Source: a virus | DNA: 64,000 bases | Direction: 5' to 3' (one strand) | Virus record (IMG/VR): IMGVR_UViG_3300020201_000458 | Coordinates: 1 to 64,000 of that record | Shown here: piece by piece, positions 18,114-41,277 of the stretch | Layout: every line of letters starts with the position of its first letter | Numbering within the stretch: the first letter of the stretch is position 1 | The notes under the pieces: generated by a model | Databases searched by the model: none | Told to the model about the DNA's origin: nothing | What the model saw: only the letters and a program-made list of their open reading frames with translations | Translations under genes and position numbers: made by a program

Positions 18114-18120
18114 CAACATA

Positions 18121-18147: not shown

Positions 18148-18155
18148 GCCTGAAT

Positions 18156-20578: not shown

Positions 20579-20579
20579 G

Positions 20580-21917: not shown

Positions 21918-22859
21918 ATGCCAGGAATTGCTGTCTTAGGTGGTGCGGGTTTCATCGGATCAAACCTCGTCGATGAACTGCTCGTTCAGGGTCACGAGGT
22001 GACTGTACTCGACAACTTCTCAGAAGGCAGACTGGAGAATCTCGAGAGGTGGAGGGGAAATCCGAAGCTTGAGGTCGTAAGGGGCGACATCAGGGAGTTC
22101 TCCCAGGTTCGACGGGCTGTTGACCACAAGGAGTGGGTCTTCCACCTTGCTGCCATGAGTCGCATTCAACCATCCATCACGGATCCACTGCTAGCTTTCA
22201 GCCAGAACGTCATGGGAACAGCGAATGTACTGGAAGCGTGTAGGCAGGGCGGAGTGAAGCGGGTCGTCTACTCCGCGTCCTCCTCAGCTTATGGTCTAAA
22301 AAATCCACTCCCAAATAGGGAGGACATGCCGACAGATTGTCTCAACCCGTACTCACTTTCCAAGAAGAACGGTGAAGAGCTAATGGACCTGTACGGAAAA
22401 TTGTACGGTCTTTCTACAGTCTCTCTCAGGTACTTCAACGTTTACGGACCTCGTCACCAGGAAGAGGGAAATTACGCGACAGTGATTGCGATCTTCCGTC
22501 GACAGAAGAGGATGGGACAGAAGTTGACCATTGTTGGAGACGGCGAACAACGTCGTGACTTCACGTTCGTCGGTGATGTTGTCCGGGCCAACATGCTAGC
22601 GGCCATGAATAGGGACGTCACTGGGATCGTGAATATAGGTACGTGTCAGAACCACAGTATCAACGATCTTGCCAAGATGATTGGTGGCGAGACGACCTTT
22701 ATCCCGGCACGACAGGCAGAGGCAAGGGAAACGTTGGCCGATAACACCCGAGCTCGTACGGTCCTGGGATGGACGCCACAAGTAGAACTGGCCAGTGGAT
22801 TGGCTGTAGTTGAAGCCTACGAGAAAAGAAATCCACCAGGACTGATCACGCTCGTCTGA
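21918..22859 (+). CDS. NAD-dependent sugar epimerase/dehydratase (extended SDR)
   Basis: 313 residues. Rossmann motif GGAGFIGSN at the N-terminus, SASSSAYG with the catalytic Ser region, and YSLSK as the Tyr-x3-Lys pair. Closest in pattern to UDP-glucose 4-epimerase and related enzymes, so it interconverts a nucleotide sugar. The exact substrate cannot be read. Confidence 0.88.
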   Translation: MPGIAVLGGAGFIGSNLVDELLVQGHEVTVLDNFSEGRLENLERWRGNPKLEVVRGDIREFSQVRRAVDHKEWVFHLAAMSRIQPSITDPLLAFSQNVMGTANVLEACRQGGVKRVVYSASSSAYGLKNPLPNREDMPTDCLNPYSLSKKNGEELMDLYGKLYGLSTVSLRYFNVYGPRHQEEGNYATVIAIFRRQKRMGQKLTIVGDGEQRRDFTFVGDVVRANMLAAMNRDVTGIVNIGTCQNHSINDLAKMIGGETTFIPARQAEARETLADNTRARTVLGWTPQVELASGLAVVEAYEKRNPPGLITLV

Positions 22860-25800: not shown

Positions 25801-26128
25801 ACGGAAGATCAGAAATTTCAAGGCATTCTGGAACAAGTGCTGGTCCAACCTGTACAATGATCCGAACCCAATTGATCGCTTCCCTGATGTACAAACGGAT
25901 GATGACGTGATAAAAAAGGCGAAGGAGCTCTTCACCCGCGGTGGTGAGCATGGACAAGCCAAGACATTCCTCCTCGAGAGGACCAATCCCTCCTCGATGA
26001 CCGAATGGCTAAATAGGATGGGGAAGGAGTACGAAAATGCCGCTCGTGGACCTATTCATAACGACGAAGGATCGGCCGCATCTTCTCAGGAAGTCCTTGG
26101 AATCCCTGGTCCAGTGCACGGACGGTAA
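22871..26128 (+). CDS. Three-domain glycosyltransferase (GT4 + GT9 + GT2)
   Basis: 1085 residues. Domain 1 (1 to about 410) is GT4-like, with TTHGEGFGLPTIEAAACGLP. Domain 2 (about 430-715) is GT9/heptosyltransferase-like: MPMSAGDVFMATAVVDSL, VVFHPGSGKG, and SVTMHMAAAFGTPHVALFG. Domain 3 (about 735-1085) is GT2-like: VIVVDGGSTDGTLEKI with the metal-binding QQDADEVV. One polypeptide could build three successive linkages. Such a GT4-GT9-GT2 fusion is unusual. Its last 92 bases overlap the next gene. Confidence 0.88.
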   Translation: MQKLLFWGPVLTASGYGEHARQLLRCILDSGKFDVSVCGVKWGHCSFLTGGDEFIDKIRALVQKYEVEKSSNQQYDVSIQVTIPNEFQKLGRVNIGVTAGIEVDRVSPEWIKKANEVCDLVVVPSKHSAQTFGSVIYKDQSGQELRLQKPLLIAAEGFDAAIFNTTPDENDGLGVDLEADFNFLSVGLGLDKGMEEDRKNISGLVKWFCQTFAGDERVGLVLKTNMVNSSLMDFETAKSRISQIKASTGCGPFPRIKLIHGRLSKKELANLYRHPKVKAYVTTTHGEGFGLPTIEAAACGLPVIATNWSGHLDFLHSPDGKRKFVPLEFDLKEIPKSSVWPGVMEQGTRWACVKEEDFQNKMKKVFLSIEKPKEWATELAAQLAESHDERKLGIQFVSAIEQFLRETSNGPNSQKVNDPCEVKRRLREQLQIPDGKKTLLFTMPMSAGDVFMATAVVDSLNKKFPEHLILFATDPKYASILKDNLKIFKIIHFDNWMTNITFCESVFDEVYTPNLAIQTVQSNWVHGGKGRLLGYEMAAQCQVEFGDYFIKTEPLFEPLPTEKYVVFHPGSGKGQWEARNYRHWRKVIRNLKKSVDITIVQVGLEDDPAYEGCVDLRGKTTYNQLAMVVQNASCVLGIDSVTMHMAAAFGTPHVALFGSSYSTSTGPVIKIKKDKPWSCLLETTNRMGCEKACYKYQCVVDRESPCVNEIDPKMVVSYALEMLSQNVTQLSPEAVKWDDCHPKIAGYTHVFNAETHGFPYVESISSMLGFCDEVIVVDGGSTDGTLEKIKALGNDKIKIFDRVWDWNEPGMDGMQKAFGRAMATVGPDDFLWQQDADEVVHEEDYEKVRKMAERFPTGVDLVHLPVVELWGVKDNVRIDRHSWKWRMSRNNFRVTHGINGPARVFDEKTGRTYAKKGQSDGCEYVDIMTNDHIPHKGFYSQELENLRQTNPDEYGKNMNRIFKEMPSIFHYSWANLPRKIRNFKAFWNKCWSNLYNDPNPIDRFPDVQTDDDVIKKAKELFTRGGEHGQAKTFLLERTNPSSMTEWLNRMGKEYENAARGPIHNDEGSAASSQEVLGIPGPVHGR

Positions 26129-26768
26129 TCTATTCCGTCTGACGATCGTCGCTGACGGTCATCACAACGCGACCAGCGAAGTCCTCAGAGAATTTGAACA
26201 GCTGTGGGATCATAAGATTGAGCATGCCATCTGCCAAGGTCTTGGACCCTCGATCAATCAGGCCCTCGCATATATCAATGCAAATAAACCATGGGACATA
26301 ACTCCGTCACCTCTGACCGTTTACGTTCAGGATGATGTGCAGTACTCCAGGGGATGGCTGGAGAAACTTTCCCAGAAGTTTCTCCAGCTCGAACGACCGT
26401 TGAACCTCGGATTTGCTTCGGGGATCGAATGCATTGAGCATCCTGTCAAGAAAGACATCGGTAACGGGATGGTTACCAAAGATTGGATCAGGGCCACTTG
26501 TATGATGGCCCGTCACGATTATTGGATGTCCATGTGGCCAATTCCCAGGATCGATCCTGAGACGGGGCGAGAGCGCGGTCGTCCTCACGATGGCCTGGGA
26601 AGTTCGGTCGATTGGTGGTTCATCAGAAATGCTGTCAACTCTGTTTGTAAGACTAGTCGGACGAATCTCGTCATTCCAGGTTTACTCCAACATATTGGTT
26701 ACAAGGAATCGACGTGGTTGAAGAGAGATCTCCCCGAGTCTAATTCTGACAAGGAGAAGATGAAATGA
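26037..26768 (+). CDS. GT2-family glycosyltransferase
   Basis: 243 residues. ATG 26037 has GGAAGGAG eight bases upstream although it lies inside the preceding gene. The N-terminal LFITTKDRPHLLRKSLESL and the VYVQDDVQY (Asp-Asp metal site) are GT2/GT-A features. Short for the family, so probably only the catalytic domain. Confidence 0.82.
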   Translation: MPLVDLFITTKDRPHLLRKSLESLVQCTDGNLFRLTIVADGHHNATSEVLREFEQLWDHKIEHAICQGLGPSINQALAYINANKPWDITPSPLTVYVQDDVQYSRGWLEKLSQKFLQLERPLNLGFASGIECIEHPVKKDIGNGMVTKDWIRATCMMARHDYWMSMWPIPRIDPETGRERGRPHDGLGSSVDWWFIRNAVNSVCKTSRTNLVIPGLLQHIGYKESTWLKRDLPESNSDKEKMK

Positions 26769-27796
26769 GACAGATCATTTTGATCTCGTATACTTCTCTG
26801 AATGCGGGTGGTGGCGTTCCACGTTGGAACCGTGACTTTGTTGCAGGATTTCCTGGAACTAAACACTATTCATGGGATGACATCCCGAAAGCTCCATTGG
26901 GCGTCCAGAACGAATGGGATGGAGCCTTTGCTCTCAACATGTGGTTGCATCTGACAAAGAAGGTGTCAAAGGACGACATCATCATCTCTGATGGCTTTTG
27001 GGGAGAACGACTGAGCGACCTGGGTTACAACGTCATTTCGATCGCTCATGGCATCTGGAGCCACCTGACCAAAGACGATGTAGACGCTGGGAAGGATCCT
27101 GAGTTTCCTTTCCACAATGCCGTCCAGGTAAAGCACCGTCATGATCATCTGGCCCGTGGTGGGAAGATCGTCGCTGTCTCCAGGTTCATCCAGGAGCAGA
27201 TGAAGCTCCAGTGGGGTTTTGAATCGAGTGTGATCAACAACGCCATCGATCTCGACAAGTGGAAAAGGCCGGTAGCTCGGATGCCGAACTGGACAGACTC
27301 GCGTCTGGTCATCCACGGGGTCACGACTGCCAACAAGGGTTTCGATCACATCGAAGCTGTTAAGAAGGCTCTACCAAACGACGACGTCTGGCTTCTGGAT
27401 GAGGCTGCCGAAAAGCTCGAACTATCAAAGGTCGACGCCCTCGCTAATGCCGATCTTGTCGTCCAACCATCTGCGTACGAGGGCAACAGCTATTTTGTAC
27501 TAGAGACTATGGCATGCGACGTCCCTATCGTAGCATACAACGTTGGTCTTCTTCACTCTATCTCAGTGATAGCAAAGGAGAATGGAATCGAAGCGTGTGT
27601 TGGGGCGATCATTGACAGGAAGTATCGTCGACCAGAAGAAACGGCAAAAGTTGCTAGCTTTATCCTGGACTCCGTCTGTCGTGATCGGAGTACGTATAAC
27701 CCGAGGCAGGTATCCGAGCTGTTCTCGGTGAAAAGATTCCACGAGCAGTGGCGAGAGTACCTGGAGGACTATGAGCGTAATATTACGAGTCGATGA
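26765..27796 (+). CDS. GT4-type glycosyltransferase
   Basis: 343 residues, ATGA-coupled to the preceding gene. Features: N-terminal AGGGVPRWNRDF, KIVAVSRFIQEQM at the domain linker, and C-terminal PSAYEGNSYFVLETMACDVP, the GT4 donor motif. Cytoplasmic. Overlaps the next start by 26 bases. Confidence 0.83.
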   Translation: MRQIILISYTSLNAGGGVPRWNRDFVAGFPGTKHYSWDDIPKAPLGVQNEWDGAFALNMWLHLTKKVSKDDIIISDGFWGERLSDLGYNVISIAHGIWSHLTKDDVDAGKDPEFPFHNAVQVKHRHDHLARGGKIVAVSRFIQEQMKLQWGFESSVINNAIDLDKWKRPVARMPNWTDSRLVIHGVTTANKGFDHIEAVKKALPNDDVWLLDEAAEKLELSKVDALANADLVVQPSAYEGNSYFVLETMACDVPIVAYNVGLLHSISVIAKENGIEACVGAIIDRKYRRPEETAKVASFILDSVCRDRSTYNPRQVSELFSVKRFHEQWREYLEDYERNITSR

Positions 27797-28421
27797 CTTC
27801 CCAGGTACGAAGCCTGAAGAATTCTGGAAACACAATCTGGATAACTTCAAGCTGTTCGATGCGGTGTTGGAGAAGTACGTCGATGAATATGTCCTTGGTG
27901 TAATCCCGAAATACACGACAGAAGAGATGATTCGTTACCTGGAGCAGAATGACAAGATCAGGGTCGCCCTCCACGGTGTGGAACACAATGAACGGTTTCC
28001 CAATGAATTCAGACCGTGGGAGACCACCGAACAGATCTTCAACAAACTTGTATCTGCCAGACAACCTTTCCAGAAGTGTAACGGCGCGCTCGATGTGGTT
28101 GACTACATCCCTCCGCACAACGTCATAGACATGAAGACAGTCGATGCTCTGAAGTTGGCTGGATTCAAGAGAATTTATGGAGGGCCCGGATCTGATGAAC
28201 ACGTAATCTGGCATGCCAAGGACGTGGGATTGAAGTTCGACTACAGCCAGTGGCCGTACTGGTATGGACGTTCAGATGAACTACTGAACCGAGACAAGGC
28301 TCATCTCATGATCAACAGCAATCCTGATCGTGTCGTGACATTGCATTGGCCGTGGGAATGGAACATCGGACTTGATAACCTCGAAAGGTTCCTCGAGGAG
28401 ATCAAGGGAGTACTACGTTGA
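27771..28421 (+). CDS. Polysaccharide deacetylase-like protein
   Basis: 216 residues. ILRVDDFPGTKP at the N-terminus, VALHGVEHNERFP (His pair) and YIPPHN resemble the metal site of NodB/DUF2334-type deacetylases (Asp-Asp plus two His). These remove acetyl groups from sugars. Not every catalytic residue can be confirmed by eye. Confidence 0.7.
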   Translation: MSVILRVDDFPGTKPEEFWKHNLDNFKLFDAVLEKYVDEYVLGVIPKYTTEEMIRYLEQNDKIRVALHGVEHNERFPNEFRPWETTEQIFNKLVSARQPFQKCNGALDVVDYIPPHNVIDMKTVDALKLAGFKRIYGGPGSDEHVIWHAKDVGLKFDYSQWPYWYGRSDELLNRDKAHLMINSNPDRVVTLHWPWEWNIGLDNLERFLEEIKGVLR

Positions 28422-29455
28422 AAAAAACTCTCTTCATAGATGCCAGAAAGGGCGGAGACTTCACTCTGGACGCGGTCTGGGCTGGGTTGGTAGATCGCAA
28501 TGGCTTTGAGAACATGATAGACTGGCCACCCTCCGAGAAGCACAGAGAGGGTATCCCGACGGTGACTGGAGATGTAGAACGCGATTACGGTGCAGAGCGG
28601 AGGTCCCTGTGCTACACGTCAGACCACGGACGGCTCCGCAACTACGATGCTCCGCAGATCAACGAACTCATCAAGTCTGGACAGATTGAGAGGATCTTCA
28701 TCGATGAACGAGAAGAATCGTACGTCCTCTACCTCCAACTGGTAGCCCGCTACTACGACATCCCGGTCGTGGTTGTGGCCGGTCACGATCGATTCTTGAA
28801 CACTATCCCGCAGCTTCACAAGTACTATGACAAGAACCTAGAGAAGATTTTTATGGACAATTGGCGTCCCGAATACAATTCGTCTTCTGGTGTTTGCCCG
28901 ATGTCATATGCCACAAATTTTGATCATCTATGGGATGTGTCAGAGAGGGATTCACTGCTGAATGATAAGGTGTACGACATCTGCTTCACGGGTTATAATA
29001 GCCACGGAGATAGAGGGAAGATCATCGACCACCTTGTCGAGAAGTACGGGGAGAAGGGTAACTGCCTCTTCGTAGAGAAGAGACCCAACACGATGGAATG
29101 TTTCTTACCAAAGCGGGAGTACTTCAAGAAGATCGCCAAGTCCAGAGTCTGTCTCAATCTCAGGGGCGCGGCCGAGTGTGGGAAGGCCCTGAGGTTCTAT
29201 GAGATTCCCTATGTTGGTTCGTACATGCTCTCCCAGAGGGACCAGGCAAACCAAGTCATGCCTTTCATCTCTCGTATCCACTGCGACTACTTCACGAACA
29301 TCGAAGAGATGGACGCGATGATCAAATGGGCCTTGGATAATCCAGTCGAACGGGAAGAGATCGCACGTTGGGGTTATAGGTACGCGATGGAACACCACAC
29401 TGCCCGGGCTCGTGTCGATCACATGTACTACAACCTTCGGAATGACTGGGACTGA
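28418..29455 (+). CDS. CgeB-like glycosyltransferase family protein
   Basis: 345 residues from TTG (overlapping the previous stop). The C-terminal block SRVCLNLRGAAECGKALRFY, followed by IPYVGSYML, resembles the donor site of CgeB/spore-maturation-type GT-B transferases. The N-terminal half is predicted alpha/beta. The substrate cannot be read from sequence. Confidence 0.7.
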   Translation: MKKTLFIDARKGGDFTLDAVWAGLVDRNGFENMIDWPPSEKHREGIPTVTGDVERDYGAERRSLCYTSDHGRLRNYDAPQINELIKSGQIERIFIDEREESYVLYLQLVARYYDIPVVVVAGHDRFLNTIPQLHKYYDKNLEKIFMDNWRPEYNSSSGVCPMSYATNFDHLWDVSERDSLLNDKVYDICFTGYNSHGDRGKIIDHLVEKYGEKGNCLFVEKRPNTMECFLPKREYFKKIAKSRVCLNLRGAAECGKALRFYEIPYVGSYMLSQRDQANQVMPFISRIHCDYFTNIEEMDAMIKWALDNPVEREEIARWGYRYAMEHHTARARVDHMYYNLRNDWD

Positions 29456-30516: not shown

Positions 30517-30641
30517 GTTGGCCAAAAGGTAAATCGTGGAATGAGGCTCGTCGAAAAGCTTTCGTATACCGTCCTCTTGGAAATCACACGGTACAGACAG
30601 CTTCGAGACTTCTCTCTTATCTCTCCGAGAGTTCGAAATGA
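30513..30641 (+). CDS. Tiny basic protein
   Basis: A 42-codon frame from TTG 30513 (overlapping the preceding stop) to a TGA overlapping the next ATG. It begins SWPKGKSWNEARRKAF and is Arg/Lys-rich. The double overlap fits translational coupling and fills a gap that would otherwise be empty. No family known. Confidence 0.45.
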   Translation: MSWPKGKSWNEARRKAFVYRPLGNHTVQTASRLLSYLSESSK

Positions 30642-31564
30642 GGATACTCTACGGACGTTGCTTTGGGATCGGAAATTGTGTGATGGCCGTACCCGCCATC
30701 AAGGCTCTCCAGTGGAAGCCAGACACGATCGTAGACATCCTCGTTGGGGACACGTCCGATGACGTCGGAGCCATCCAAGTGTTGTCCAAGGTGGTACAAG
30801 GTCCTGGGAAACTTTGTGTGAACAGCGCCCTCGAGCATGACTACGACGTGGCTGTGATGGCCATTCCATTTGATGGTCGCTGGCTCAACGGCGTTCACTT
30901 TCGAGCCAAGGAAGTCATGGACGGTCGGACCCGACCAGATCCGAAGACGACTGGACTCGTCTCGTGGAATGATCACGAGTCTGAGTATCAGATGGAGAAC
31001 GCTAGAAAGCTCGGTTACCTTGGATCGACCCCGTCGTCTCGTTTCCTCCCGTTCACCGGAGAGGCACTTCCGAATAGGATCTATATCGGAATGGGATACA
31101 AAAAAGATCAGTTGGGTTTCTGGAAGAGCAAACACTGGGGAAACGAGAACTACGCCGCACTCATCACCGGTCTTCTTAAGAACCTCCCTGAGGACTGGAA
31201 GATCGTGACGACAGGCGATGTAGGTGATCTCCAGCTTTCCATCGCCCCAGTGGCTCGGATGGTGAACGACAAGAGGTTTGAGTTCAAGCTTTCCGCCAAT
31301 TTAGATGAAGCATTCCGAGTAGTCGCCTCCTGCGGGCTATACGTGGGGAACGACACCGGGATGATGCATGTCGCCGCCTCCTGTGGGAGGAACGTCGTCG
31401 CAATGTTCTTTCTCGAGAACTCTATCGTGAAGAGTCGACCGCTTCTCTCCAGTCAATCAGATCGCCCCCTTCAGGAATGCCTCGTACTTGACGGCACCAT
31501 AGACCGTGCCAAGATTACTCCACAATACGTGCAGACGGCCGTCGAGGTGACACTCTGTGGTTGA
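30638..31564 (+). CDS. GT9-family (heptosyltransferase-like) glycosyltransferase
   Basis: 308 residues, ATGA-coupled. N-terminal CFGIGNCVMAVPAIKAL and C-terminal LYVGNDTGMMHVAASCGR are the two GT9 signatures. Family members transfer ADP-heptose to LPS core. With the heptose-type activation genes downstream, the donor may be a nucleotide-heptose (inference). Confidence 0.85.
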   Translation: MRILYGRCFGIGNCVMAVPAIKALQWKPDTIVDILVGDTSDDVGAIQVLSKVVQGPGKLCVNSALEHDYDVAVMAIPFDGRWLNGVHFRAKEVMDGRTRPDPKTTGLVSWNDHESEYQMENARKLGYLGSTPSSRFLPFTGEALPNRIYIGMGYKKDQLGFWKSKHWGNENYAALITGLLKNLPEDWKIVTTGDVGDLQLSIAPVARMVNDKRFEFKLSANLDEAFRVVASCGLYVGNDTGMMHVAASCGRNVVAMFFLENSIVKSRPLLSSQSDRPLQECLVLDGTIDRAKITPQYVQTAVEVTLCG

Positions 31565-32198
31565 GAAAGAACTGATCAAGGCTTTCAAGTTGATGGCATT
31601 AAGAAACGACGTCTTGCAGGACACACACGGGAACCTGTCTGTTTTGGCCAGCGATCAGATCTACATCAAACCCAGCGGAGTCCCATACGATGAGATCGAT
31701 ATCTGGTCAATCTGCAGGTTCCAGCTTCTCGAGAATGGATCAACGGTCAGCTCCAAGAACAATGGATACAAGCCTTCCGTCGATCTGATCCACCATGCTT
31801 CTATCTACAAGAACAACCCGCATATCAAGTCCATTTGCCACACACATTCACCGTATGCGGTCGCCCATGCGATCTGTGGCCTGCCGATTGATTGCCTTTG
31901 CACAGAGCACGCTGACTACTTTGGTTGGAGAGTTCCGTGCTTGAGTTACAAAGATCTCGACAGTTGGGGATCTGATGTGCGAATACTCGACGGAGCTCGA
32001 GCCGTCTTGCTGGAACATCACGGTGCCCTCACGTTCTCAGATGAGCCTGTGAAAGCGGTCAATCTTGCGATCCAGTTGGAGAACGTAGCGCGGAAGAATC
32101 ATCTTGCGATGACTCTCTATCCGAAGCTTCGGATGATGGCATACAATGAATCTCAGAAGTGGCATGAGAGGTACAATAATGTCTACGGACAACGGTAG
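31557..32198 (+). CDS. Class II aldolase (fuculose/ribulose-phosphate type)
   Basis: 213 residues from GTG. THGNLSV, IKPSGV, HTHSPYAVAHA (zinc His95 and His97) and LEHHGAL (His155) are the family's conserved elements. Members cleave or epimerise phosphorylated sugars (fuculose-1-P aldolase, ribulose-5-P 4-epimerase). Followed by RpiB and transaldolase homologues, pointing to supply of unusual pentose or heptose phosphates. Confidence 0.87.
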   Translation: MVEKELIKAFKLMALRNDVLQDTHGNLSVLASDQIYIKPSGVPYDEIDIWSICRFQLLENGSTVSSKNNGYKPSVDLIHHASIYKNNPHIKSICHTHSPYAVAHAICGLPIDCLCTEHADYFGWRVPCLSYKDLDSWGSDVRILDGARAVLLEHHGALTFSDEPVKAVNLAIQLENVARKNHLAMTLYPKLRMMAYNESQKWHERYNNVYGQR

Positions 32199-32631
32199 GA
32201 AGATTTTAATCTCGTCTGATCACAACGGGAATGCCGCCCGTGCGTACATTATCAAGTTCCTTAGGGCTGACGGTTACGATGTCCAGGATCTTGGCCCGAA
32301 CTACGATCAGAAGGTCGATTACCCAGAAATGGCTGCCGACCTTTGCCACGCGCTGGAGAAGATTTACGGTGCGCGGGGCATCCTTCTATGCGGTACGGGC
32401 ACTGGGATGTTGATCGCAGCCAATCGGTTTCCGCATATCCGCGCAGGATTGGCGACTGACCGAGCGACCGCCGAACTGATGCGCCAACACAACGATTGCA
32501 ACGTTTTAGTTCTTGGACAGTGGCGCACCCCGTTGGGGCAGATGGACGAACTCATCAGGACATTCTTGACCACGCCGTTTGAAGAAGGTCGTCACATCGA
32601 TCGGGTCGAATCTCTCGGTAGACTTCCATGA
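32179..32631 (+). CDS. rpiB: RpiB/LacAB-family sugar-phosphate isomerase
   Basis: 150 residues from ATG 32179. SSDHNGNAA at the N-terminus and GILLCGTGTGM with catalytic Cys71 are diagnostic of ribose-5-phosphate isomerase B. It interconverts aldose and ketose phosphates. The substrate may differ from ribose here. Overlaps both neighbours slightly. Confidence 0.88.
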   Translation: MSTDNGRKILISSDHNGNAARAYIIKFLRADGYDVQDLGPNYDQKVDYPEMAADLCHALEKIYGARGILLCGTGTGMLIAANRFPHIRAGLATDRATAELMRQHNDCNVLVLGQWRTPLGQMDELIRTFLTTPFEEGRHIDRVESLGRLP

Positions 32632-33569
32632 ATGTATTGGTCATCGGGGACGTCGTCATCGATCGGTACACACACGGCAATCGTCGGGGGATTTCCGCAG
32701 AGACCCCAACGATCGTAGCCAACTTCATCAAGGAAGACGTCTTCGTTGGTGGAGCTGGGTTGGTTACGCGGAACCTTCTACGTCTGGGAAACACGGTGAC
32801 CCTCCTCACTGTTGGAAACTGCGAAGAACTCCATCCACTCATGTTGAGGTCAGCCGATCCTATTGATAGATTCGAATCCGCAAGATTGAGTGTCATTATG
32901 ACAAATAAGAACGGGTGGAAGGTTTCCGAAAAACATCGGTACTATGTCGAGCAGTACAAGCTTCTGCAATACGATCTGATCAATCCTGGAAAGTGGACTC
33001 CACATGAAGAGGACCGTTACGCCGAACAAATCATGTACCAACTTGTAGCTTTGAGTTACGATGCGGTTGTGATATGCGACAATAGACACGGCGTGATGAT
33101 CGAACATTTCGCCAGCAAAATCATCGAACGTTGCCATGTCCAGAACAAACCGGTGTACGTAGACTCCCAGGTCTCTCAGGCAGAATCAAACCATCACTGG
33201 TACAAGGGTGCCAGTTTTATCTTCATGAATGAGATAGAAGCCGATTGCGCGGCGAAGAAGATTAAGAAACTCAAGAAGGGTGATGCCCAGCTCAACCAGC
33301 TGTCGAAGTTTCTCAAGGCAAGCATCGTTTACAAAAGAGGGGAACGTGGGGCCATCACTGTCTGCCAAGACGGGAAGACGATCGTGTCAGAAGGTTTTGA
33401 AGTAAACGCTGTCGATACGTGCGGTGCTGGTGACGCTTTCCTCGCAGCTTTCGTTCATCACGGGAACGACCTGGAAGCTGCGAACCGGTGGGCTGCGTTG
33501 TCAACTACTTATAAGGGGACCATCGTCCCTAGGACTGAAGACTTGCATCTTCGAAAGGTGACGCGATGA
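32628..33569 (+). CDS. PfkB-family sugar kinase (RfaE/HldE N-domain-like)
   Basis: 313 residues. VIGDVVIDRYTHGNRRGISA at the start matches heptose-7-phosphate kinase-type PfkB proteins, and TCGAGDAFLAAF holds the catalytic Asp near the C-terminus. It phosphorylates a sugar or sugar phosphate. A second, related kinase lies at 40363. Confidence 0.85.
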   Translation: MNVLVIGDVVIDRYTHGNRRGISAETPTIVANFIKEDVFVGGAGLVTRNLLRLGNTVTLLTVGNCEELHPLMLRSADPIDRFESARLSVIMTNKNGWKVSEKHRYYVEQYKLLQYDLINPGKWTPHEEDRYAEQIMYQLVALSYDAVVICDNRHGVMIEHFASKIIERCHVQNKPVYVDSQVSQAESNHHWYKGASFIFMNEIEADCAAKKIKKLKKGDAQLNQLSKFLKASIVYKRGERGAITVCQDGKTIVSEGFEVNAVDTCGAGDAFLAAFVHHGNDLEAANRWAALSTTYKGTIVPRTEDLHLRKVTR

Positions 33570-34237
33570 AATTGTTACTTGACACGGCAAACATCGATCA
33601 GATCCGTCTGTTCATGCAGAGCACTATGCTGGCTGGGGTGACCACCAATCCGTCCCTCATGGCGAAGGAATCTAAGGGAGATTACGTAGAGAAACTCAAG
33701 ACGATCGCTGAAGCTGTCCAAAATCAGTTGAGCGCCAGGCACCTAAGCGTTGAGGTGACTACACTTGATCCGAATGTGATGATCGTGGAAGCCCAAACTC
33801 TCAATGATGCTCTCGGAAGAAATGGAGTTGATGTTCACATCAAGATTCCAGTGATGATGGAGACCATGAGAGTGATATCCACGCTCAGGCGAAAAGACGT
33901 TAAGGTAAATGCCACCGCTTGTATGACCGCATTCCAAGCCAAAATGGCGATGGACGCTGGAGCAAATATCGTCTCGTTCTTTTATAACAGGATCAAGGAT
34001 GAAAATGAGAGTCCAGATAGTGTGCTTACGCTCTTCAATCAGATTAGAGTCAATCTAGAACAGACGAAGATAATTTGCGGTAGCATAAGAGAACCAGACG
34101 ATGTTCGGCGCTGTTTTCTTCAGGGAGCTGATTATGTAACCGTCAGCCCAGCCATTCTACAGAAGATGATCGAGCATCCTCAGACTACCAAAGCTATCGC
34201 CCAATTCCAGAAGGATATCGACTCATGGCTCAGTTAA
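33566..34237 (+). CDS. Transaldolase / fructose-6-phosphate aldolase-like
   Basis: 223 residues, the usual size of the short TalC/FSA subfamily. LDTANIDQI, GVTTNPSLM and VHIKIPV with Schiff-base Lys93; NATACMT and GADYVTVSP further on. It transfers or cleaves three-carbon units between sugar phosphates, for example to feed sedoheptulose-7-phosphate. ATGA-coupled to the kinase. Confidence 0.9.
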   Translation: MKLLLDTANIDQIRLFMQSTMLAGVTTNPSLMAKESKGDYVEKLKTIAEAVQNQLSARHLSVEVTTLDPNVMIVEAQTLNDALGRNGVDVHIKIPVMMETMRVISTLRRKDVKVNATACMTAFQAKMAMDAGANIVSFFYNRIKDENESPDSVLTLFNQIRVNLEQTKIICGSIREPDDVRRCFLQGADYVTVSPAILQKMIEHPQTTKAIAQFQKDIDSWLS

Positions 34238-34596
34238 CTAAGATTCCAATGGGTGGGCAGTTTCGTATGCTCCGAGGATGGGGGTATGAAACGTGGATTG
34301 AGAATCTCCCAGAGTACTGTGGAAAGATTCTGCATGTCTACAAGGGACTGCGCGGGTCCCTACACTTTCATATGAATAAGATGGAAACTATGTACCTCCA
34401 GTCTGGAAAGGTTCAGCTTCGTTTTGTAGACCCGGAGAAGGGTACCGACTATACGATCGACCTGAATCCTGGTGATTCGATTCTGATACCACGCGGGCAG
34501 GTTCATCAGATCATTGGAATTGAAGAGAGTGATCTCTTTGAGTTTAGCACCGTGCATGAAGAGTCAGACTCTCATCGAGTTCAGAAGGGGGACTGA
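34225..34596 (+). CDS. Cupin, mannose-6-phosphate isomerase C-domain type
   Basis: 123 residues. GSLHFHMNKMETMYLQSG supplies the cupin His/Glu metal site and PGDSILIPRGQVHQI the second motif. Resembles the type II phosphomannose isomerase cupin. Could be a sugar-phosphate isomerase or epimerase. Confidence 0.83.
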   Translation: MAQLTKIPMGGQFRMLRGWGYETWIENLPEYCGKILHVYKGLRGSLHFHMNKMETMYLQSGKVQLRFVDPEKGTDYTIDLNPGDSILIPRGQVHQIIGIEESDLFEFSTVHEESDSHRVQKGD

Positions 34597-35483
34597 TGCG
34601 TTGGAACATTGTCGGGGCATTCATCCGGAATAATCCCTTTGGGACAGAGATCGCTTTTCGGAAGGGTCTCGAGAGGATCGGAGAGACTGTGACGGCGGTG
34701 GACCCAGGTTACCCCAACCAACAGTTTGATGAAGCTCCAGACGTCACCTTGGTGTTCAAGTGGGTGGACACGGGACCGTATCGCGATAAAATCGTCTCTC
34801 TACCTGGGAAAAAGGTCCTCTACCAGGTTGATGATCTCCGTTTTCCGCACATTAAACAGATGATGCTCGAGATGAGATCGGTGTGTAACAATGCGCTGAC
34901 TTTCGATCAAGATGGAGCAAACCTTGCTCTTGAGTACGGGTACGATTCGGGGCAACGTCTATTGTTGACTGCCGATAATCTCCTTTACCGTCATATCACC
35001 GGAATGCAGAAGGATATCGATGTTAGTTTTGTTGGAAGTCTGTCGAATGGTCCGAATCATGCCAGCCGCATGAGGATGATTCAACTTGTTAAGGGAATCC
35101 CTGGCCTGCGAGTAGTGATCGCCAGCGAGCTCTTCGACATCGGAAAACTCTGTGAGATCTACAATCGTTCCAAGGTTGTCCTGAATCACGCGACAGATGT
35201 TGGTCAACCTTTCGGTCATGGGTTTGGGTATCAGTGTCGACACTTCGAAGCCGGGTTCACCAAGACTTGCATCCTTTCGAACAAGATTGACAACGACGAG
35301 ACATTGGGATTCATACCGTTCTTTTCGAATGAGTTGGAGCTCGTTGAACGTCTTAAGACACTTCTTAACGAACAGAAGCGCAGGGAGTTATATGCACAGT
35401 TGACTTACGATCAGCTCTATAAATCACACCTTCCAGAACACCGCGCCAAAGAGATGATCGAGTTTGTACGGAGTGTCCGGTGA
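34596..35483 (+). CDS. CgeB-like glycosyltransferase
   Basis: 295 residues. KVLYQVDDLRFP, DVSFVGSLSNG, YNRSKVVLNHA and RHFEAGFTKTCILS are typical of the CgeB/DUF3880-type GT-B transferases. ATGA-type overlap with the cupin gene and GTGA overlap with the next gene. Confidence 0.78.
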   Translation: MRWNIVGAFIRNNPFGTEIAFRKGLERIGETVTAVDPGYPNQQFDEAPDVTLVFKWVDTGPYRDKIVSLPGKKVLYQVDDLRFPHIKQMMLEMRSVCNNALTFDQDGANLALEYGYDSGQRLLLTADNLLYRHITGMQKDIDVSFVGSLSNGPNHASRMRMIQLVKGIPGLRVVIASELFDIGKLCEIYNRSKVVLNHATDVGQPFGHGFGYQCRHFEAGFTKTCILSNKIDNDETLGFIPFFSNELELVERLKTLLNEQKRRELYAQLTYDQLYKSHLPEHRAKEMIEFVRSVR

Positions 35484-36073
35484 AGATCAATCTTGGGTGC
35501 GGGCCCGATTTGAAAGATGGCCACGTGAACGTCGACTTCAGGGATCTTCCAGGAGTGACGAAAGTAGATCTCTCCATATTTCCGTGGCCATGGGCTGACG
35601 ATTCCGCTGATCAGATCTTGATGTTGGATTTTCTGGAACACTTCCCGTACAGGAAGACGACTACTATCCTTCGTGAGTGTTGGCGTGTCCTGAAGATGGG
35701 TGGGAACCTCGAAGTCCAGGTTCCAGACCTCGAACATTGCGCGCGCGCTGCAGCAATGACAGGACCATTCCTGTGTAACAGGTGTGGATGGCAGTATCCG
35801 ATGCACGACCTTCGGGCAGACTTCTTCATCTGCAAGCAGTGTAAGCAACCGTGGACAGAGTGTGCCCAAGCTGCCATCCACCGTTTGTACGGTGGTCAGG
35901 ACTACGAAGGAAATTGGCATCACACAGCCTTCACGACTCTCCAGCTGAACAGGTTGTTGCAGGGGCACGGGTTCGAAGACATCCGCGAGCTGGAGCACGA
36001 GCACCAGTACAAGAATTGGAATTTCAAGTTTTCTGCCACAAAGATGAAAGACCTGTGGGGTGATGAACCGTGA
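35480..36073 (+). CDS. SAM methyltransferase with an inserted zinc ribbon
   Basis: 197 residues from GTG. INLGCGPDLKDGHVNVD is the SAM motif and ILMLDFLEHFPY the following acidic loop, as in small class I methyltransferases of sugar pathways. In the C-terminal half a zinc ribbon (CNRCGWQYP, then CKQCKQPW) interrupts the domain, which is unusual. GTGA/ATGA-type coupling on both sides. Confidence 0.8.
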   Translation: MKINLGCGPDLKDGHVNVDFRDLPGVTKVDLSIFPWPWADDSADQILMLDFLEHFPYRKTTTILRECWRVLKMGGNLEVQVPDLEHCARAAAMTGPFLCNRCGWQYPMHDLRADFFICKQCKQPWTECAQAAIHRLYGGQDYEGNWHHTAFTTLQLNRLLQGHGFEDIRELEHEHQYKNWNFKFSATKMKDLWGDEP

Positions 36074-37029
36074 ACGACTGGAAAGGAAAGAACGTCCTTG
36101 TCACAGGGGCCGCCGGTTTCATCGGTGGCTGCGTAGCTCGTGAGCTTCTTGATCAAGAGGCTATTGTGACGTGTCTCATCAGGACGAAGGGAAAGAATCC
36201 GAATCTCCTGGGGGCGAAGATATTCGAAGGGGATGTGGCGGACTACGCCTTGATGTGTGAGATCATCTCTTCGGGAGAAATTGAGTACGTCTTTCATCTG
36301 GCGGCAAACGCCATCGTCAGGGTCGGGGCTCGGGATCCGATGAACACATACCGAATCAACGTGATGGGTACGGTCGCCCTCCTTGAGGCAGTCCGTACGG
36401 TTGGCCGATGCAAGAAGGTAGTCGTGGCTTCGAGTGACAAAGCCTACGGTGATCACGATATCCTTCCGTACAAGGAGGACATGGCACTCCAACCGAAGAA
36501 CACGTACGATACTTCCAAGGCTTGCGCAGACATGATCGCGCGCTCGTATGCCCACAACTACGATCTTCCGATCGTCGTCACACGTTGCAGCAACGTCTAT
36601 GGTCCTCGGGATCCTAATATGTCGAGGATCATCCCCAACACGATCAATCGAATTCTGGAAGGCAAGAAGCCGCAGCTTTATTCGGACGTCAGCGTCATGG
36701 AGAGAGAGTTTATCTTCATCGACGACGTGGTCGTTGCCAACTTGGCCCTCGCTCTATCTGGTCCAGAGACAAACGGGGAGGCATTCAACGTCGGTAGGAA
36801 CCACGCTCACATGGTTTCGACCGTGGTCGAACAGATCTCCAAGATGATGGGCTTCGAAGACGGAGTCGAGATCGTTCCTCGCGAGCCCTCCTTCAAGGAA
36901 ATCCAGAAGCAGTACATCAGCGCTCGAAAGCTCGAAGAGGCGACCGAATGGAGCGCGCGGGTCCAACTCATCGACGGTCTGAGGAAGACGATCGACTGGT
37001 ATAAGGTATTCGGGAGAAGTGACCGATGA
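36070..37029 (+). CDS. NAD-dependent sugar 4,6-dehydratase (CDP-glucose/GDP-mannose type)
   Basis: 319 residues. GAAGFIGGCVARELL (cofactor), ASSDKAYG, YDTSKACADMIARSY (Tyr-x3-Lys) and RCSNVYGPRD are close to CDP-glucose 4,6-dehydratases. It would make a 4-keto-6-deoxy sugar nucleotide. Coupled by ATGA to the preceding methyltransferase. Confidence 0.85.
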   Translation: MNDWKGKNVLVTGAAGFIGGCVARELLDQEAIVTCLIRTKGKNPNLLGAKIFEGDVADYALMCEIISSGEIEYVFHLAANAIVRVGARDPMNTYRINVMGTVALLEAVRTVGRCKKVVVASSDKAYGDHDILPYKEDMALQPKNTYDTSKACADMIARSYAHNYDLPIVVTRCSNVYGPRDPNMSRIIPNTINRILEGKKPQLYSDVSVMEREFIFIDDVVVANLALALSGPETNGEAFNVGRNHAHMVSTVVEQISKMMGFEDGVEIVPREPSFKEIQKQYISARKLEEATEWSARVQLIDGLRKTIDWYKVFGRSDR

Positions 37030-38063
37030 GAGTTGCCTTCGTCGGGGTCAAGCGTAAGTACCAAGAGTTGGCGCCTGAGTACAAAGACTTCTTCAATCAG
37101 TATCATCTGGAGCTTCCGTACTACTACGCTCGACATGGACAGAATCATGTCACGATCACGACCGTCGATCATGATTCTCCTCCCATCCGTTTTGCCCGAG
37201 ATTATTCCGATTTCCTGGAATGCCAGACGGAAGAGAAGTACAAGATCGAAGGTCGTAGATACGATGTCGTCGTGCACTGGCGTAAGTGGTTCCCCGAGTT
37301 ACGTAAAGAAGGTACCATCAATCTTCTCAACTGTCAGGATCACTCGTTCAGTCAAGAATGGAAAGACAGTGTCCGTCAAGCGATGAACGCTGGTCAGCTG
37401 CATGGAATACTCTGTTTTCCGACCTGGCACAAGCAGAATATCCACGAAGAGACTGGCATCCCGCTCGATAGGCTTTTCGATGGAGTCACCCTGGGAGTAG
37501 ACACTGAAGTTTATAAACCAGCTCTCGTTAAAGATCCATTCCAGATGCTGTGGGCATCCGATCCTGGGCGCGGTCTAACTCAAGCGATGTGTCTCGCTGC
37601 CGAACTCTTCCAGAGAGACAAGCGGTTTAGACTTCACGTCTGTGTTCCAGACTACGTCAAGATGAACTCTTCTCCTTTCAACCACCCAGCGATCGCCTGG
37701 CATGGGTGCGTCCCGAATGGTCCGAAGCTCTGGGAGCTCTTCAACAGTTCCGGGATCCTCCCGTACACTTCTTGCTTCAAAGAGCCGTCTTCCCGGGCCC
37801 ATCGGCAGGCCCAGGCGGCAGGGTGCCTGGTTCTCTACCCTCCTGGTATGGGAACACCCTCCGAACTCATCCAGCATGAACGGACGGGCATCGTGGAGCC
37901 AATCGGTCAATGGACGGAACGGATTCGAAACTTTGCCGTCCACAGAGAACGTACTGAGATCGGACCGCAGGCCCGTGAGTTTGCGATCACGGAAAACTGG
38001 GAAGTGCAGGCGCAGAACTTCAATCGTCTCATCGAAAAGATCAAGGGAGAACAAAATGATTGA
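37026..38063 (+). CDS. GT4-like glycosyltransferase
   Basis: 345 residues. GVTLGVDTEVYKP, MLWASDPGRGL and the C-terminal KEPSSRAHRQAQAAGCLVLY are GT4-like donor-site elements, although the canonical Glu motif is diverged. It ends just where a GIY-YIG element has been inserted. Confidence 0.74.
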   Translation: MRVAFVGVKRKYQELAPEYKDFFNQYHLELPYYYARHGQNHVTITTVDHDSPPIRFARDYSDFLECQTEEKYKIEGRRYDVVVHWRKWFPELRKEGTINLLNCQDHSFSQEWKDSVRQAMNAGQLHGILCFPTWHKQNIHEETGIPLDRLFDGVTLGVDTEVYKPALVKDPFQMLWASDPGRGLTQAMCLAAELFQRDKRFRLHVCVPDYVKMNSSPFNHPAIAWHGCVPNGPKLWELFNSSGILPYTSCFKEPSSRAHRQAQAAGCLVLYPPGMGTPSELIQHERTGIVEPIGQWTERIRNFAVHRERTEIGPQAREFAITENWEVQAQNFNRLIEKIKGEQND

Positions 38064-38692
38064 CATCAACGCGAAATCATATTTATCGTGTGAAGACGCG
38101 TTATGCGCTGTACCTTATTCTTGATCCATGTTCTGGTATGCCGCGATACGTTGGAATGACAACGCGCGGGTTTCATCGGAGAACGAGTGAACATCTAAAA
38201 GCAATTCACGACAAGCGATTTAAGACACATCTTTATTTCTGGCTGAGAGTTCTTCATAGCAAAGGATTGAAACCTTTCTTCGAACTTGTCCGTTGCTTTG
38301 AGGAAAGTACTCGAGGGGAAGAAGCTCTTTGCGACGCAGAGATTGATTTTATTTCTCTTCGTTCTGCGGGAGCGGACTTAACAAATACTGCTCGTGGTGG
38401 AAAGGGTAAATCGAGTAACGGTAGAGTGCCTTGGAATAAAGGAAAGTCGGGTGTGTCAGCAGAGACAAGTGAAAAGATGCGGTCTGAAAAAGTTGGGAAA
38501 GTCTCCCCGCGGAAAGGTGTCATTCTCTCTTCGGAAACAAAAGAAAAATTGAGAGTTTCTCATCTCGGAAAAGCTGCTTCACCAGAGACAAAAGAAAAGA
38601 TGAGTTTGACCCATAGGTTAATTTGGAAAAGGAGAAAAAATGCCAGTAGATATCAACTCGACGGACTTCATGCAGACATTCAAACTGGCTGA
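38060..38692 (+). CDS. GIY-YIG homing endonuclease with NUMOD3-like repeats
   Basis: About 200-210 residues; TTG 38060 or GTG 38090 as start. The GIY-YIG core is RYALYLILDPCSG, then PRYVGMTTRGFHRRTSEHL. The C-terminal half has repeated Ser-x-Glu-Thr motifs (SAETSEKMRSEKVGK, SSETKEKLRVSHLGK, SPETKEKMSLTH) of the NUMOD3 DNA-binding type. It is A/T-richer than its neighbours. Its end overlaps the dehydrogenase gene by 53 bases, suggesting it took over that gene's 5' end. Confidence 0.83.
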   Translation: MTSTRNHIYRVKTRYALYLILDPCSGMPRYVGMTTRGFHRRTSEHLKAIHDKRFKTHLYFWLRVLHSKGLKPFFELVRCFEESTRGEEALCDAEIDFISLRSAGADLTNTARGGKGKSSNGRVPWNKGKSGVSAETSEKMRSEKVGKVSPRKGVILSSETKEKLRVSHLGKAASPETKEKMSLTHRLIWKRRKNASRYQLDGLHADIQTG

Positions 38693-39563
38693 CGCCACTG
38701 TCGGGGTGGTCGGTCATGGATTCGTGGGACAGGCGGTCGCAGAATTCTTCAAGGGAACGTGCGGAAACATCGTCATCAACGACAAGGCGAAACCGGAACT
38801 GGCGACCCTGAAGGAGGTCGTGACCCGGTCCGAACTGATCTTCGTCTGCGTCCCGACCCCGATGCGGAAGGACGGATCATGCTACACAGGGTTCGTGGAA
38901 GAGGTGATCGCGAACATCAAGACCACCGCCCAGGAGATCAAGAGGAATTTCGATTCCTTCGTGGTCGTGGTCAAGAGCACGGTCTACCCGGGATTCATCG
39001 AAGATATGCAGAGCAAGCATCTCCCGATGAGGCTGACCTTCTCTCCCGAGTTCATTACGGAGAAGAATAGCGTCGAAGACTTCAAGAAAACAAACAGGAT
39101 CATCGTAGGTGGGGATGAGGACGACGCGATGATTGTCCTGAAATACTTTCACGATGTTGATCCAAAAAGGATCGAGGATGGTCGACGCGTCCTTCTTCAG
39201 TGCAATCCAACAACGGCCGAGATGGTAAAACTCTATGCCAACGGGATTTTGACCGCGAAGGTCATTTTCTCGAACGAGGTCTACCAGATCTGTCAGAAGC
39301 TTGGAGTTGACTTCGAAGAGGTCAGGGCAATATCAGTCCTGGATACTCGAATCGGAACGGGGCATACTCTTGTCCCTGGCCCAGACGGCCAACTGGGATA
39401 CGGTGGTCACTGCTTCCCCAAAGACATCCAGAACCTCAGAGCTACAGCTCGGGTGTGCGAAGTTCCGGAGAAGCTATTTACCGCGATGATCGATCGCAAT
39501 GAAGAGCTGAGAGAGAAGAAGGACTGGCTAGATATGAAAGAACGGGCTGTCACGGAGAACTGA
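38640..39563 (+). CDS. Short UDP-glucose/GDP-mannose 6-dehydrogenase-like protein
   Basis: 307 residues. NAD motif VGVVGHGFVG, VKSTVYPG, SPEFITEKN, the substrate-binding AEMVKLYANGI and the catalytic GYGGHCFPKD (Cys258) are all present. Full-length family members are about 390-450 residues and carry a third, C-terminal nucleotide-sugar-binding domain; this one stops shortly after the central domain. It may work with a partner or on a different substrate. AGGAG ribosome site just before ATG. Confidence 0.86.
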   Translation: MPVDINSTDFMQTFKLADATVGVVGHGFVGQAVAEFFKGTCGNIVINDKAKPELATLKEVVTRSELIFVCVPTPMRKDGSCYTGFVEEVIANIKTTAQEIKRNFDSFVVVVKSTVYPGFIEDMQSKHLPMRLTFSPEFITEKNSVEDFKKTNRIIVGGDEDDAMIVLKYFHDVDPKRIEDGRRVLLQCNPTTAEMVKLYANGILTAKVIFSNEVYQICQKLGVDFEEVRAISVLDTRIGTGHTLVPGPDGQLGYGGHCFPKDIQNLRATARVCEVPEKLFTAMIDRNEELREKKDWLDMKERAVTEN

Positions 39564-39895
39564 TGCCTACGCTTGTCATGGACATGGATGGGACAATCTG
39601 CGAGCAGATGCATGGCGATGGGTATTTTATCGCCAGACCCATTCAATTCGTGATCGATAAAATGAGATCATACAAACTCAAGGGATGGGATATTGTAATC
39701 CACACCGCCCGTGGCATGGGACGTTATGATGGAAACATCGCTCGCATCGAGTTTGAGTTTCGTTACAAGACGGAGAAGTGGTTACGAGATCACGGCGTCC
39801 CATATGATAAGCTGATCTTCGGGAAGCCTGCCGGAGACATCTACGTGGATGACAAGGGGATAGTACCTGATGACTTTGCGACCAGAGACGCTTGA
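39563..39895 (+). CDS. HAD-family phosphatase
   Basis: 110 residues. DMDGT (Asp7, Asp9), IHTARG (motif II) and the C-terminal PAGDIYVDDKG acidic motif. The size and lack of a cap fit small HAD enzymes of capsule or heptose pathways. It could dephosphorylate the heptose bisphosphate step, as GmhB does (inference). Confidence 0.84.
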   Translation: MPTLVMDMDGTICEQMHGDGYFIARPIQFVIDKMRSYKLKGWDIVIHTARGMGRYDGNIARIEFEFRYKTEKWLRDHGVPYDKLIFGKPAGDIYVDDKGIVPDDFATRDA

Positions 39896-40370
39896 AAGTG
39901 AATCCTACAAAGAGCTTTGCGAATCGATTCGTGCTGAGGGTCGCAAGAAATATGGTTCCCAGGGGTACTCTCGAGTGGTCTTCGCTAATGGCGTCTTTGA
40001 TCTTCTTCATTTGGGTCACCTTTCTCTCCTGAACGAGTGTCGAATCTTGGCTGGTCCAAATGGCGCCGTTGTCGTCGGAGTGAATTCTGATGCGTCTGTG
40101 AAGAGGATCAAAGGTCCCAACAGACCCATCCTGGACGAGGTCACCCGGTGTTCCACTTTGATCTTCATGAAGCCGGTGGATCACGTCTTGACATTCGATG
40201 AAGACACCCCACTCGAACTGGTGGAAGTTCTCCGTCCTGACGTTATCGTCAAGGGATCTGAATACAGAAACAAGAAGGTCGTCGGTTCACACTTGGCTGT
40301 CGTGACGTACGTCGATAGTAAGGAAGGCATCTCGACGACCCAGCTGATCGAGAGGATCCGCAATGGATGA
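39870..40370 (+). CDS. Cytidylyltransferase-like nucleotidyltransferase (HldE C-domain-like)
   Basis: 166 residues. FANGVFDLLHLGHLSLL is the HxGH nucleotidyltransferase motif and VIVKGSEYRNKKVVGS the partner block, as in heptose-1-phosphate adenylyltransferase. It joins NMP to a sugar-1-phosphate. Directly upstream of the kinase that in many bacteria is fused to it as HldE. Confidence 0.86.
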   Translation: MTLRPETLESESYKELCESIRAEGRKKYGSQGYSRVVFANGVFDLLHLGHLSLLNECRILAGPNGAVVVGVNSDASVKRIKGPNRPILDEVTRCSTLIFMKPVDHVLTFDEDTPLELVEVLRPDVIVKGSEYRNKKVVGSHLAVVTYVDSKEGISTTQLIERIRNG

Positions 40371-41277
40371 ACCAAAAAAGATACTCGTGGTTGGTGATGT
40401 GATGATCGACAAGTACATCTTCGCCATGACTTCTCGTCAAGCTCCAGAGGCGCCAATACCGGTGTGGGACGAGGTGGCATATGAGCTCCGTCTCGGTGGA
40501 GCGGCCAACGTCGCTAACAACCTGAAGGCTCTGGGCGGGGATGAGGTCGAAGTCTATCTGGCGGGTATCGTTGGTTTGATCGACAAGAAGATGATCTCCC
40601 GGGCAGGCATCAACACAATCTTGTGCGCCGGCAATGAGTCGATGTACAAGACCAGGTACATCGACTCACACAGCAAGAAGCACATGTTCCGTGTCGACAA
40701 TATTCGGACATTCTCTCCAGAGTCTAAGACACATTTTCTCCGTTGCCTACAACACTTTCTCAGGGGTCACGTGTTCGATGCGGTCATCTTCTCCGACTAC
40801 GATAAAGAGACCATCAATCTTGACGTGATGGAGATCGTCATCCCCACTTCCAAATTGACTGTTGTAGACTCGAAGCGGACAGATCTTTCCATGTACAAGG
40901 GTGCGCAATTGCTCAAGATCAATGAATACGAGTATGCGACACAACTTTCTCGTGGTCCGTATCTCAACGTCGAGAGTCTGTTCGACTACGTTGTCGTAAC
41001 CCATGGCTCAAAGGGCGCTGAGCTACGGCAGCATGAAGTGACAAAGAGTGATGAGAGACGATACATGGTCCATAGCGAAAACTTCGCCGTCGACCCTGTG
41101 AATGTTCAAGACGTGACTGGATGTGGTGACACCCACACGGCAGCCATGACGTTTTCTTTATTGAAAAACCAGGACGTCCGCTTGGCTGTTCGATTCGCCA
41201 ATGCTTGCTCTAGGAATGTCGTACAGAAGTTTGGCACCAGCGTAAGTGATGTCAGCTTGGCTAGCATTGGTGTATAA
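40363..41277 (+). CDS. PfkB-family kinase (HldE N-domain-like)
   Basis: 304 residues. VVGDVMIDKYIF, RLGGAANVANNLKALGG and VTGCGDTHTAAM (catalytic Asp; GCGD instead of the usual GAGD) match heptose-7-phosphate kinases. Overlaps the nucleotidyltransferase gene, so the pair acts as a split HldE. Confidence 0.85.
   Translation: MDEPKKILVVGDVMIDKYIFAMTSRQAPEAPIPVWDEVAYELRLGGAANVANNLKALGGDEVEVYLAGIVGLIDKKMISRAGINTILCAGNESMYKTRYIDSHSKKHMFRVDNIRTFSPESKTHFLRCLQHFLRGHVFDAVIFSDYDKETINLDVMEIVIPTSKLTVVDSKRTDLSMYKGAQLLKINEYEYATQLSRGPYLNVESLFDYVVVTHGSKGAELRQHEVTKSDERRYMVHSENFAVDPVNVQDVTGCGDTHTAAMTFSLLKNQDVRLAVRFANACSRNVVQKFGTSVSDVSLASIGV

Follow-up and report, generated by a model that had tools for sequence, protein, structure and literature searches.

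The 64-kb stretch of viral DNA analysed here (the window) comes from a 75,068-base virus record, itself a fragment, of a tRNA-rich, contractile-tailed phage, and carries at positions 31557–41277 a block of sugar-enzyme genes inside a glycan locus of ~21 kb (Table 1). The enzymes of the block are open frames on the + strand, and in this single co-directional block adjacent genes overlap by 1–53 bases. As the original prediction stated, an RpiB-fold isomerase, a transaldolase, two HldE1-like kinases, a HAD phosphatase and an HldE2-like nucleotidyltransferase occur together here. The order of these genes is kept in six further viral lineages, namely L084 (GC content 0.43), L085–L088, which form one lineage (0.61), L089 (0.61), L115/L136 (0.43), L135 (0.35) and L137 (0.47), with the window itself at 0.50, and RpiB identity across the syntenic lineages is 55–73%. 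Because the gene order recurs in this way, the block is not a chance assembly.

Table 1 Genes of the glycan locus and the matches on which their assignment is based
Feature	Position in window	Strand	Evidence
GT4 glycosyltransferase, first glycan-locus gene	20496..21908	+	Pfam; preceded by PD-(D/E)XK nuclease
Short-chain dehydrogenase/reductase (SDR), nucleoside diphosphate (NDP)-sugar epimerase/dehydratase	21918..22859	+	Pfam Epimerase; best NCBIfam GalE
1085-aa multi-domain glycosyltransferase, GT4 + GT9 + GT2	22871..26128	+	Pfam; kept in relatives
GT2, GT4, DUF2334 and Glyco_trans_1_2 genes (starts 26037, 26765, 27771, 28418)	26037..29455	+	Pfam; syntenic
GT9 (heptosyltransferase-family) glycosyltransferase	30638..31564	+	Glyco_transf_9 7e-11
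AraD-type class II aldolase-fold 4-epimerase	31557..32198	+	Pfam Aldolase_II 4e-36; best NCBIfam hit L-ribulose-5-phosphate 4-epimerase
RpiB-fold sugar-phosphate isomerase, Arg113 to Trp	32146..32631	+	Pfam LacAB_rpiB 1e-43; above PRK05571 cut-off
Kinase 1, HldE1-like pfkB, operon clade	32628..33569	+	TIGR02198 3.5e-34, below cut-off
TalC-type transaldolase (catalytic Lys93, Glu63)	33566..34237	+	TAL_FSA 7e-41; closest solved chains are transaldolases
Single-domain cupin	34225..34596	+	Cupin_1/Cupin_2; 52% identical to phage Bellamy cupin
Glycosyltransferase (34596), methyltransferase (35480), SDR 4,6-dehydratase-like (36070), GT-B protein (37026)	34596..38063	+	First three Pfam
NDP-sugar 6-dehydrogenase-like, N-terminal and central domains	38640..39563	+	UDPG_MGDP_dh_N and central domain; no C-terminal hit
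HAD phosphatase, EcbF/BcbF-like	39563..39895	+	TIGR01689 5.9e-25, below cut-off; HAD catalytic Asp residues conserved
HldE2-like nucleotidyltransferase (HxGH), RfaE domain II	39870..40370	+	TIGR02199 1.3e-39
Kinase 2, HldE1-like, canonical-HldE clade	40363..41277	+	TIGR02198 4e-50, below cut-off

The first gene of the block had been called an aldolase, and it does have the class II aldolase fold, but its catalytic residues assign it as an AraD-type 4-epimerase, although it scores below the equivalog cut-off for L-ribulose-5-phosphate 4-epimerase. Residues D76, H95, H97, D120, H155 and Y210, which we take to correspond to the Zn ligands and the catalytic Asp120 and Tyr229 of E. coli AraD (E. 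coli numbering), are invariant in four phages and are kept, except for one gap, in 32 distinct copies of the operon. The TAL/FSA-family protein is likewise assigned by its residues: K93 is present in 36 of 36 operon copies and E63 in 35 of 36, and the combination of the catalytic Lys with a Glu at the Gln59 position of fructose-6-phosphate aldolase (numbering of that enzyme) marks a transaldolase and not a fructose-6-phosphate aldolase. The C3–C4 bond of ketose phosphates is the site of both transaldolase and AraD chemistry.

Both kinases correspond to RfaE domain I of the pfkB type, with TIGR02198 as their best match (118 and 171 bits vs a cut-off of 345). A tree of 100 kinases has two groups and separates them: kinase 1 joins 37 operon kinases, and kinase 2 joins 45 viral HldE kinase domains in the HldE-type group, which has support 1.0. 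On this basis, two activation modules seem to have been combined in the window, with a single phosphatase and a single nucleotidyltransferase serving both. The nucleotidyltransferase conserves the HxGH residues H47, G49 and H50 and scores 135.3 bits against TIGR02199 (cut-off 181.5); trees of this enzyme and of the phosphatase do not assign the window copies to a source module.

The Arg113 position of RpiB and its fusions in environmental viruses

In the window RpiB, the position of Arg113 is occupied by a tryptophan (W115) that is conserved throughout the RpiBs of this operon, being present in 58 of 58 (51 fusions and seven stand-alone cassette RpiBs). When RpiBs of viruses and bacteria are aligned, all 11 sequences from outside the cassette have Arg or Lys at this position, and the five solved RpiBs that we aligned have Arg. 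The catalytic Cys and His and the phosphate-binding Arg137/141 are kept in the window protein and in the 57 other operon RpiBs. In MtRpiB, Arg113 binds the substrate phosphate (PMC3755991), and in the Leishmania enzyme it is listed as a substrate-contacting residue (PMC4783025), while LacAB, an isomerase of C6 hexose phosphates, lacks Arg113 and has a longer pocket (PMC3755991). Since Trp replaces Arg113 in every operon RpiB while the catalytic residues are retained, the substrate of these enzymes has probably changed to one larger than ribose 5-phosphate. A genome scan with the window RpiB alignment returned only RpiBs of Bacilli, at 37–39% identity.

Viral scans with single sequences of kinase 1, AraD or transaldolase found no relative, and an alignment-based scan was required; performed with the transaldolase, it brought in two contigs (L117 and L121) in which RpiB and an HldE2-like nucleotidyltransferase form one open frame, both domains being confirmed by Pfam. 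Scanning viruses with this fusion yielded 51 loci (37 distinct sequences), flanked by a kinase in 49, a cupin in 48, a transaldolase in 47, a phosphatase in 47 and AraD in 44; the exact order fusion-kinase-AraD-cupin-transaldolase-phosphatase is found in 27. These key relatives are all metagenomic contigs, mostly fragments. The compact operon thus recurs in dozens of viral contigs, and the annotated phage and plasmid records that we searched do not show it as such: no match to the fusion over at least 80% of its length was found among 50,697 phage (GenBank) and 72,556 plasmid (PLSDB) records, and GenBank phages gave no match to the block in a near-DNA search. Nor was a full-length fusion found at E 1e-40 in 295 sampled genomes of the phylum of the Bacilli metagenome-assembled genome, cellular genomes at large not having been scanned.

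A second kind of fusion is carried by the cultured Synechococcus phage Bellamy, whose gene 206 (L204, 4589–5746) joins RpiB to an NTP_transferase domain (PF00483-type) that is non-homologous to the HldE2-like one; a gene of the Bellamy type is also present in phage SynMITS9220M01. In the cluster around gene 206, a cupin gene stands between the genes of an HddA-like heptose 7-phosphate kinase and an HddC-like transferase, and AraD-like and HAD proteins are encoded as well. That two different nucleotidyltransferase folds have been joined to RpiB is strong evidence that this RpiB works in sugar activation. The annotation of gene 206 as 'phosphatase' is probably wrong.

Viral rpiB and transaldolase genes have so far been read as part of pentose-phosphate metabolism that supplies nucleotides, and the present data offer an alternative reading. 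Such an auxiliary role, raising ribose 5-phosphate for nucleotide synthesis, has been proposed in print for the rpi and talC genes of viruses from ocean viromes (PMC4053976), and talC is common in cyanophages. For the window, however, it is highly improbable given that RpiB has lost its phosphate-binding Arg, forms a fusion with a sugar nucleotidyltransferase in relatives and sits among glycosyltransferases, with no zwf or gnd seen among the block genes scanned; we rejected a pure pentose-phosphate role on the fusion, Trp113 and the gene context.

Several of the environmental contigs have further features. Contigs L143 and L151 carry both kinds of kinase, with a second nucleotidyltransferase-kinase-cupin set placed directly after the RpiB-fusion operon (L143, 13667–14799; L151, 13376–14524). 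Contig L120 has a nucleotidyltransferase and, at 9358–10666, a transaldolase directly preceded by a weak SIS (GmhA-like) gene, an arrangement in which SIS would seem to have replaced RpiB.

The surrounding glycan locus

Along the window, a dense tRNA array is followed by a PD-(D/E)XK nuclease, the co-directional glycan locus (about 20.5 to 41.3 kb) and baseplate/tail-family genes. The array (9261–19047) comprises 34 predicted tRNAs and a tmRNA with the tag AKSNDMVPAWMIAAQAASAPAFA; the tRNA at 13286–13362 is predicted with an undetermined two-letter anticodon. The compared genomes correspond outside the locus too, and the larger two have arrays of 35 and 31 tRNAs. The cultured Microcystis phage Mel-JY01 and Flavobacterium phage immuto are distant relatives that share a baseplate protein at 33–37%. 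In both, a PD-(D/E)XK nuclease likewise precedes or neighbours a cassette of glycosyltransferases, which is accompanied by different sugar enzymes. Since these relatives keep the nuclease-associated cassette while its sugar enzymes differ, the site appears to be a constant location for glycan genes, with a sugar chemistry that varies between phages.

Besides the enzymes already named, the locus holds a DUF2334 protein and several features that the original prediction had overlooked, namely the cupin (34225–34596), an NDP-sugar dehydrogenase truncated to the extent that it has no C-terminal domain hit, two SDRs, two methyltransferases and about ten glycosyltransferase domains. Two of these domains are of the GT9 family that had been predicted to accompany the block, although one belongs to a gene just outside it and the other to the 1085-aa protein further upstream (22871–26128); their DTGxxH motif is present in all seven cassette lineages and would fit a heptose-type donor. 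The 345-aa protein encoded at 37026 has no Pfam hit, but its AlphaFold model (mean predicted local distance difference test score 84.6) matches GT4 structures, with MshA as the best PDB match (E 5e-15), and it is predicted to fold as a GT-B glycosyltransferase. The NDP-sugar dehydrogenase, which has the catalytic Cys motif GGHCFPKD, is itself conserved in all cassette lineages and may act on an unusual substrate. Between a glycosyltransferase and this dehydrogenase lies a NUMOD3-containing gene (38060–38692), probably homing-endonuclease-like, which was not found at the matching place in relatives; a weak relative is located elsewhere in G004.

Proposed route to an activated sugar and its destination

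We lean towards the view that the product of the block is a sugar in activated form, probably a higher-carbon (heptose-like) one, which would serve a phage-encoded glycan and arise through a GmhA-independent, heptose-type activation. In the route that we infer, with its substrates, reaction order, chain length, nucleotide and destination, the transaldolase would transfer a three-carbon unit and so build or remodel a ketose phosphate, the AraD-type enzyme would set the configuration at C4, and the Trp113 RpiB would interconvert ketose and aldose phosphate in the place that GmhA holds in bacteria. Kinase 1 would then phosphorylate C1, the HAD enzyme strip the terminal phosphate and the nucleotidyltransferase make the NDP-sugar, from which a methylated glycan would be put together by the GT9-containing and other glycosyltransferases; this assembly would be cytosolic and its acceptors most likely virion proteins. 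Kinase 2, together with the phosphatase and nucleotidyltransferase, would probably activate a second, canonical heptose-type substrate from the host.

An activated pentose or hexose is a doubtful alternative product. It could be of an L-ribulose/L-arabinose type derived from D-xylulose 5-phosphate by AraD and RpiB, or of a tagatose/galactose type, with the heptose-derived kinase and transferase having changed their specificity. AraD and RpiB are canonical pentose-phosphate enzymes, and LacAB, a member of the RpiB family, has C6 substrates and likewise lacks Arg113 (PMC3755991). Nevertheless, RfaE-type kinases and transferases and GT9 domains are associated with heptose, and Bellamy pairs RpiB and a close cupin relative with an HddA-like heptose 7-phosphate kinase.

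The original prediction had named virion, lipopolysaccharide (LPS) or DNA as possible targets of the product. In a simple hydropathy scan of the 75-kb record, no + strand frame had two or more segments of strong hydrophobicity. This result speaks against a flippase or polymerase encoded by the phage, favours glycosylation in the cytosol and disfavours LPS. Thymidylate synthase/hydroxymethylase, which would hint at DNA glycosylation, was found in none of six fragmentary records, a result that is not informative. Some actinobacteriophage virions are glycosylated according to a report cited in PMC13313380, and the glycan of the present phage is probably attached to the virion.

A number of points weigh against the higher-carbon, GmhA-independent route. 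Profile searches placed the enzymes in families, as the original prediction had proposed, yet all Hld-type matches lie below the curated equivalog cut-offs, and in its tree the window nucleotidyltransferase does not group clearly with either the fused enzymes or those of HldE. Lineages L089 and L135 have no match to the phosphatase gene at the matching place, the ketose-aldose isomerase could be the cupin instead of RpiB, and attachment to the virion is suggested by gene context alone. The absence of GmhA, already remarked in the original prediction, was confirmed in that no SIS_2 domain was found in six related records (G000–G005) or in 37 fusion-operon records, which are fragments; however, SIS_2 is also absent from 39 viral control records chosen as HldE-type, so we rejected this absence as evidence.

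Dozens of environmental viruses carry relatives of the enzyme set, often with two enzymes fused. This recurrence suggests that a sugar pathway different from the known bacterial one is widespread among viruses; the widespread operon and the diagnostic Arg-to-Trp change are its new elements. More specifically, and only as a tentative proposal, the pathway would be specific to viruses, with an RpiB-derived isomerase, often fused to an HldE2-like transferase, acting on a transaldolase-built, AraD-epimerised C7/C8 sugar phosphate to yield an NDP-sugar not known from cells, with which many environmental phages would glycosylate their virions. A new substrate is predicted from the Arg113Trp change, and the fused isomerase-transferase is a single protein.

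Comparison with known sugar pathways

The phage block resembles the ADP-heptose pathway (GmhA, HldE, GmhB, HldD) in that a putative C1 kinase, a phosphatase and a candidate HldE2-type nucleotidyltransferase would prepare the sugar for GT9 transferases, but neither GmhA nor HldD was detected. The SDRs best match GalE and dTDP-glucose dehydratase, and their heptose_epim scores are 134.5 and 105.3 bits vs a cut-off of 274.6. The HAD phosphatase had been predicted as an activation step of ADP-heptose synthesis; the enzyme is present, but matches EcbF/BcbF (TIGR01689) below the cut-off and takes the place of GmhB. AraD, transaldolase and cupin are added on the viral side, where RpiB is fused to the transferase in many viruses. 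Because GmhA and HldD were not found and the phosphatase is EcbF/BcbF-like, the gene content is not that of a standard ADP-heptose pathway, and of the prediction that the phage carries most of a nucleotide-heptose pathway the logic alone is retained, the added enzymes pointing to a different or more elaborate sugar. It is therefore unlikely that the block is strictly the standard NDP-D-glycero-D-manno-heptose pathway, in which RpiB would replace GmhA on sedoheptulose 7-phosphate, with AraD and cupin incidental. The HldE1-like kinases, HldE2-like transferase, GT9 domains and RpiB-nucleotidyltransferase fusions would all suit such a pathway, but AraD (44 of 51 loci) and cupin (48 of 51) are nearly as conserved as kinase and transaldolase; this conservation, and the retained catalytic residues of AraD, argue that the two are not incidental. 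Of the suggestion that RpiB might stand in for GmhA, the part in an activation pathway is strongly supported by the 51 fusion loci and the Bellamy fusion, whereas its strict form is as improbable as this pathway.

In the lincomycin route, which is a proven precedent for such a chain of enzymes, the transaldolase LmbR makes an octulose phosphate that is passed to an isomerase, kinase, phosphatase and nucleotidyltransferase to give a C8 sugar (PMC5854111, PMC4351081). The phage block follows the same transaldolase-isomerase-kinase-phosphatase-nucleotidyltransferase logic as this lincosamide octose pathway (LmbR, LmbN, LmbP, LmbK, LmbO), a likeness of logic for which homology of the clusters is not shown. 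It differs in having an HldE-type kinase and transferase, an RpiB isomerase, AraD and a cupin; in place of the lincosamide SIS isomerase and GHMP kinase, no SIS_2 was found in G000–G005 and the kinases are pfkB.

The viral HldE cassettes of marine viruses and cyanophages share HldE1/HldE2 homologues and SDR and cupin neighbours with the block, but their kinase and transferase are fused (HldE) and the mapped loci have no AraD-RpiB-transaldolase block. Many marine viral contigs (L004–L083) carry a complete HldE followed by SDR and cupin, with no SIS_2 in the records tested. Within the RpiB/LacAB family, the operon RpiB shares the fold and the catalytic Cys, His, Asp and Arg residues, and differs by the Trp at position 113 in every operon member. 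The sugar cluster of Bellamy (genes 200–222) has a fused RpiB and nucleotidyltransferase, AraD-like and HAD proteins, and a cupin with 52% identity to that of the window, but uses a PF00483-type transferase and a GHMP (HddA-like) kinase, gives no transaldolase hit among the genes scanned, and carries Lys instead of Trp at position 113 of RpiB. Bellamy and SynMITS9220M01, the Synechococcus phages with this related cluster, have public records that name their laboratory hosts.

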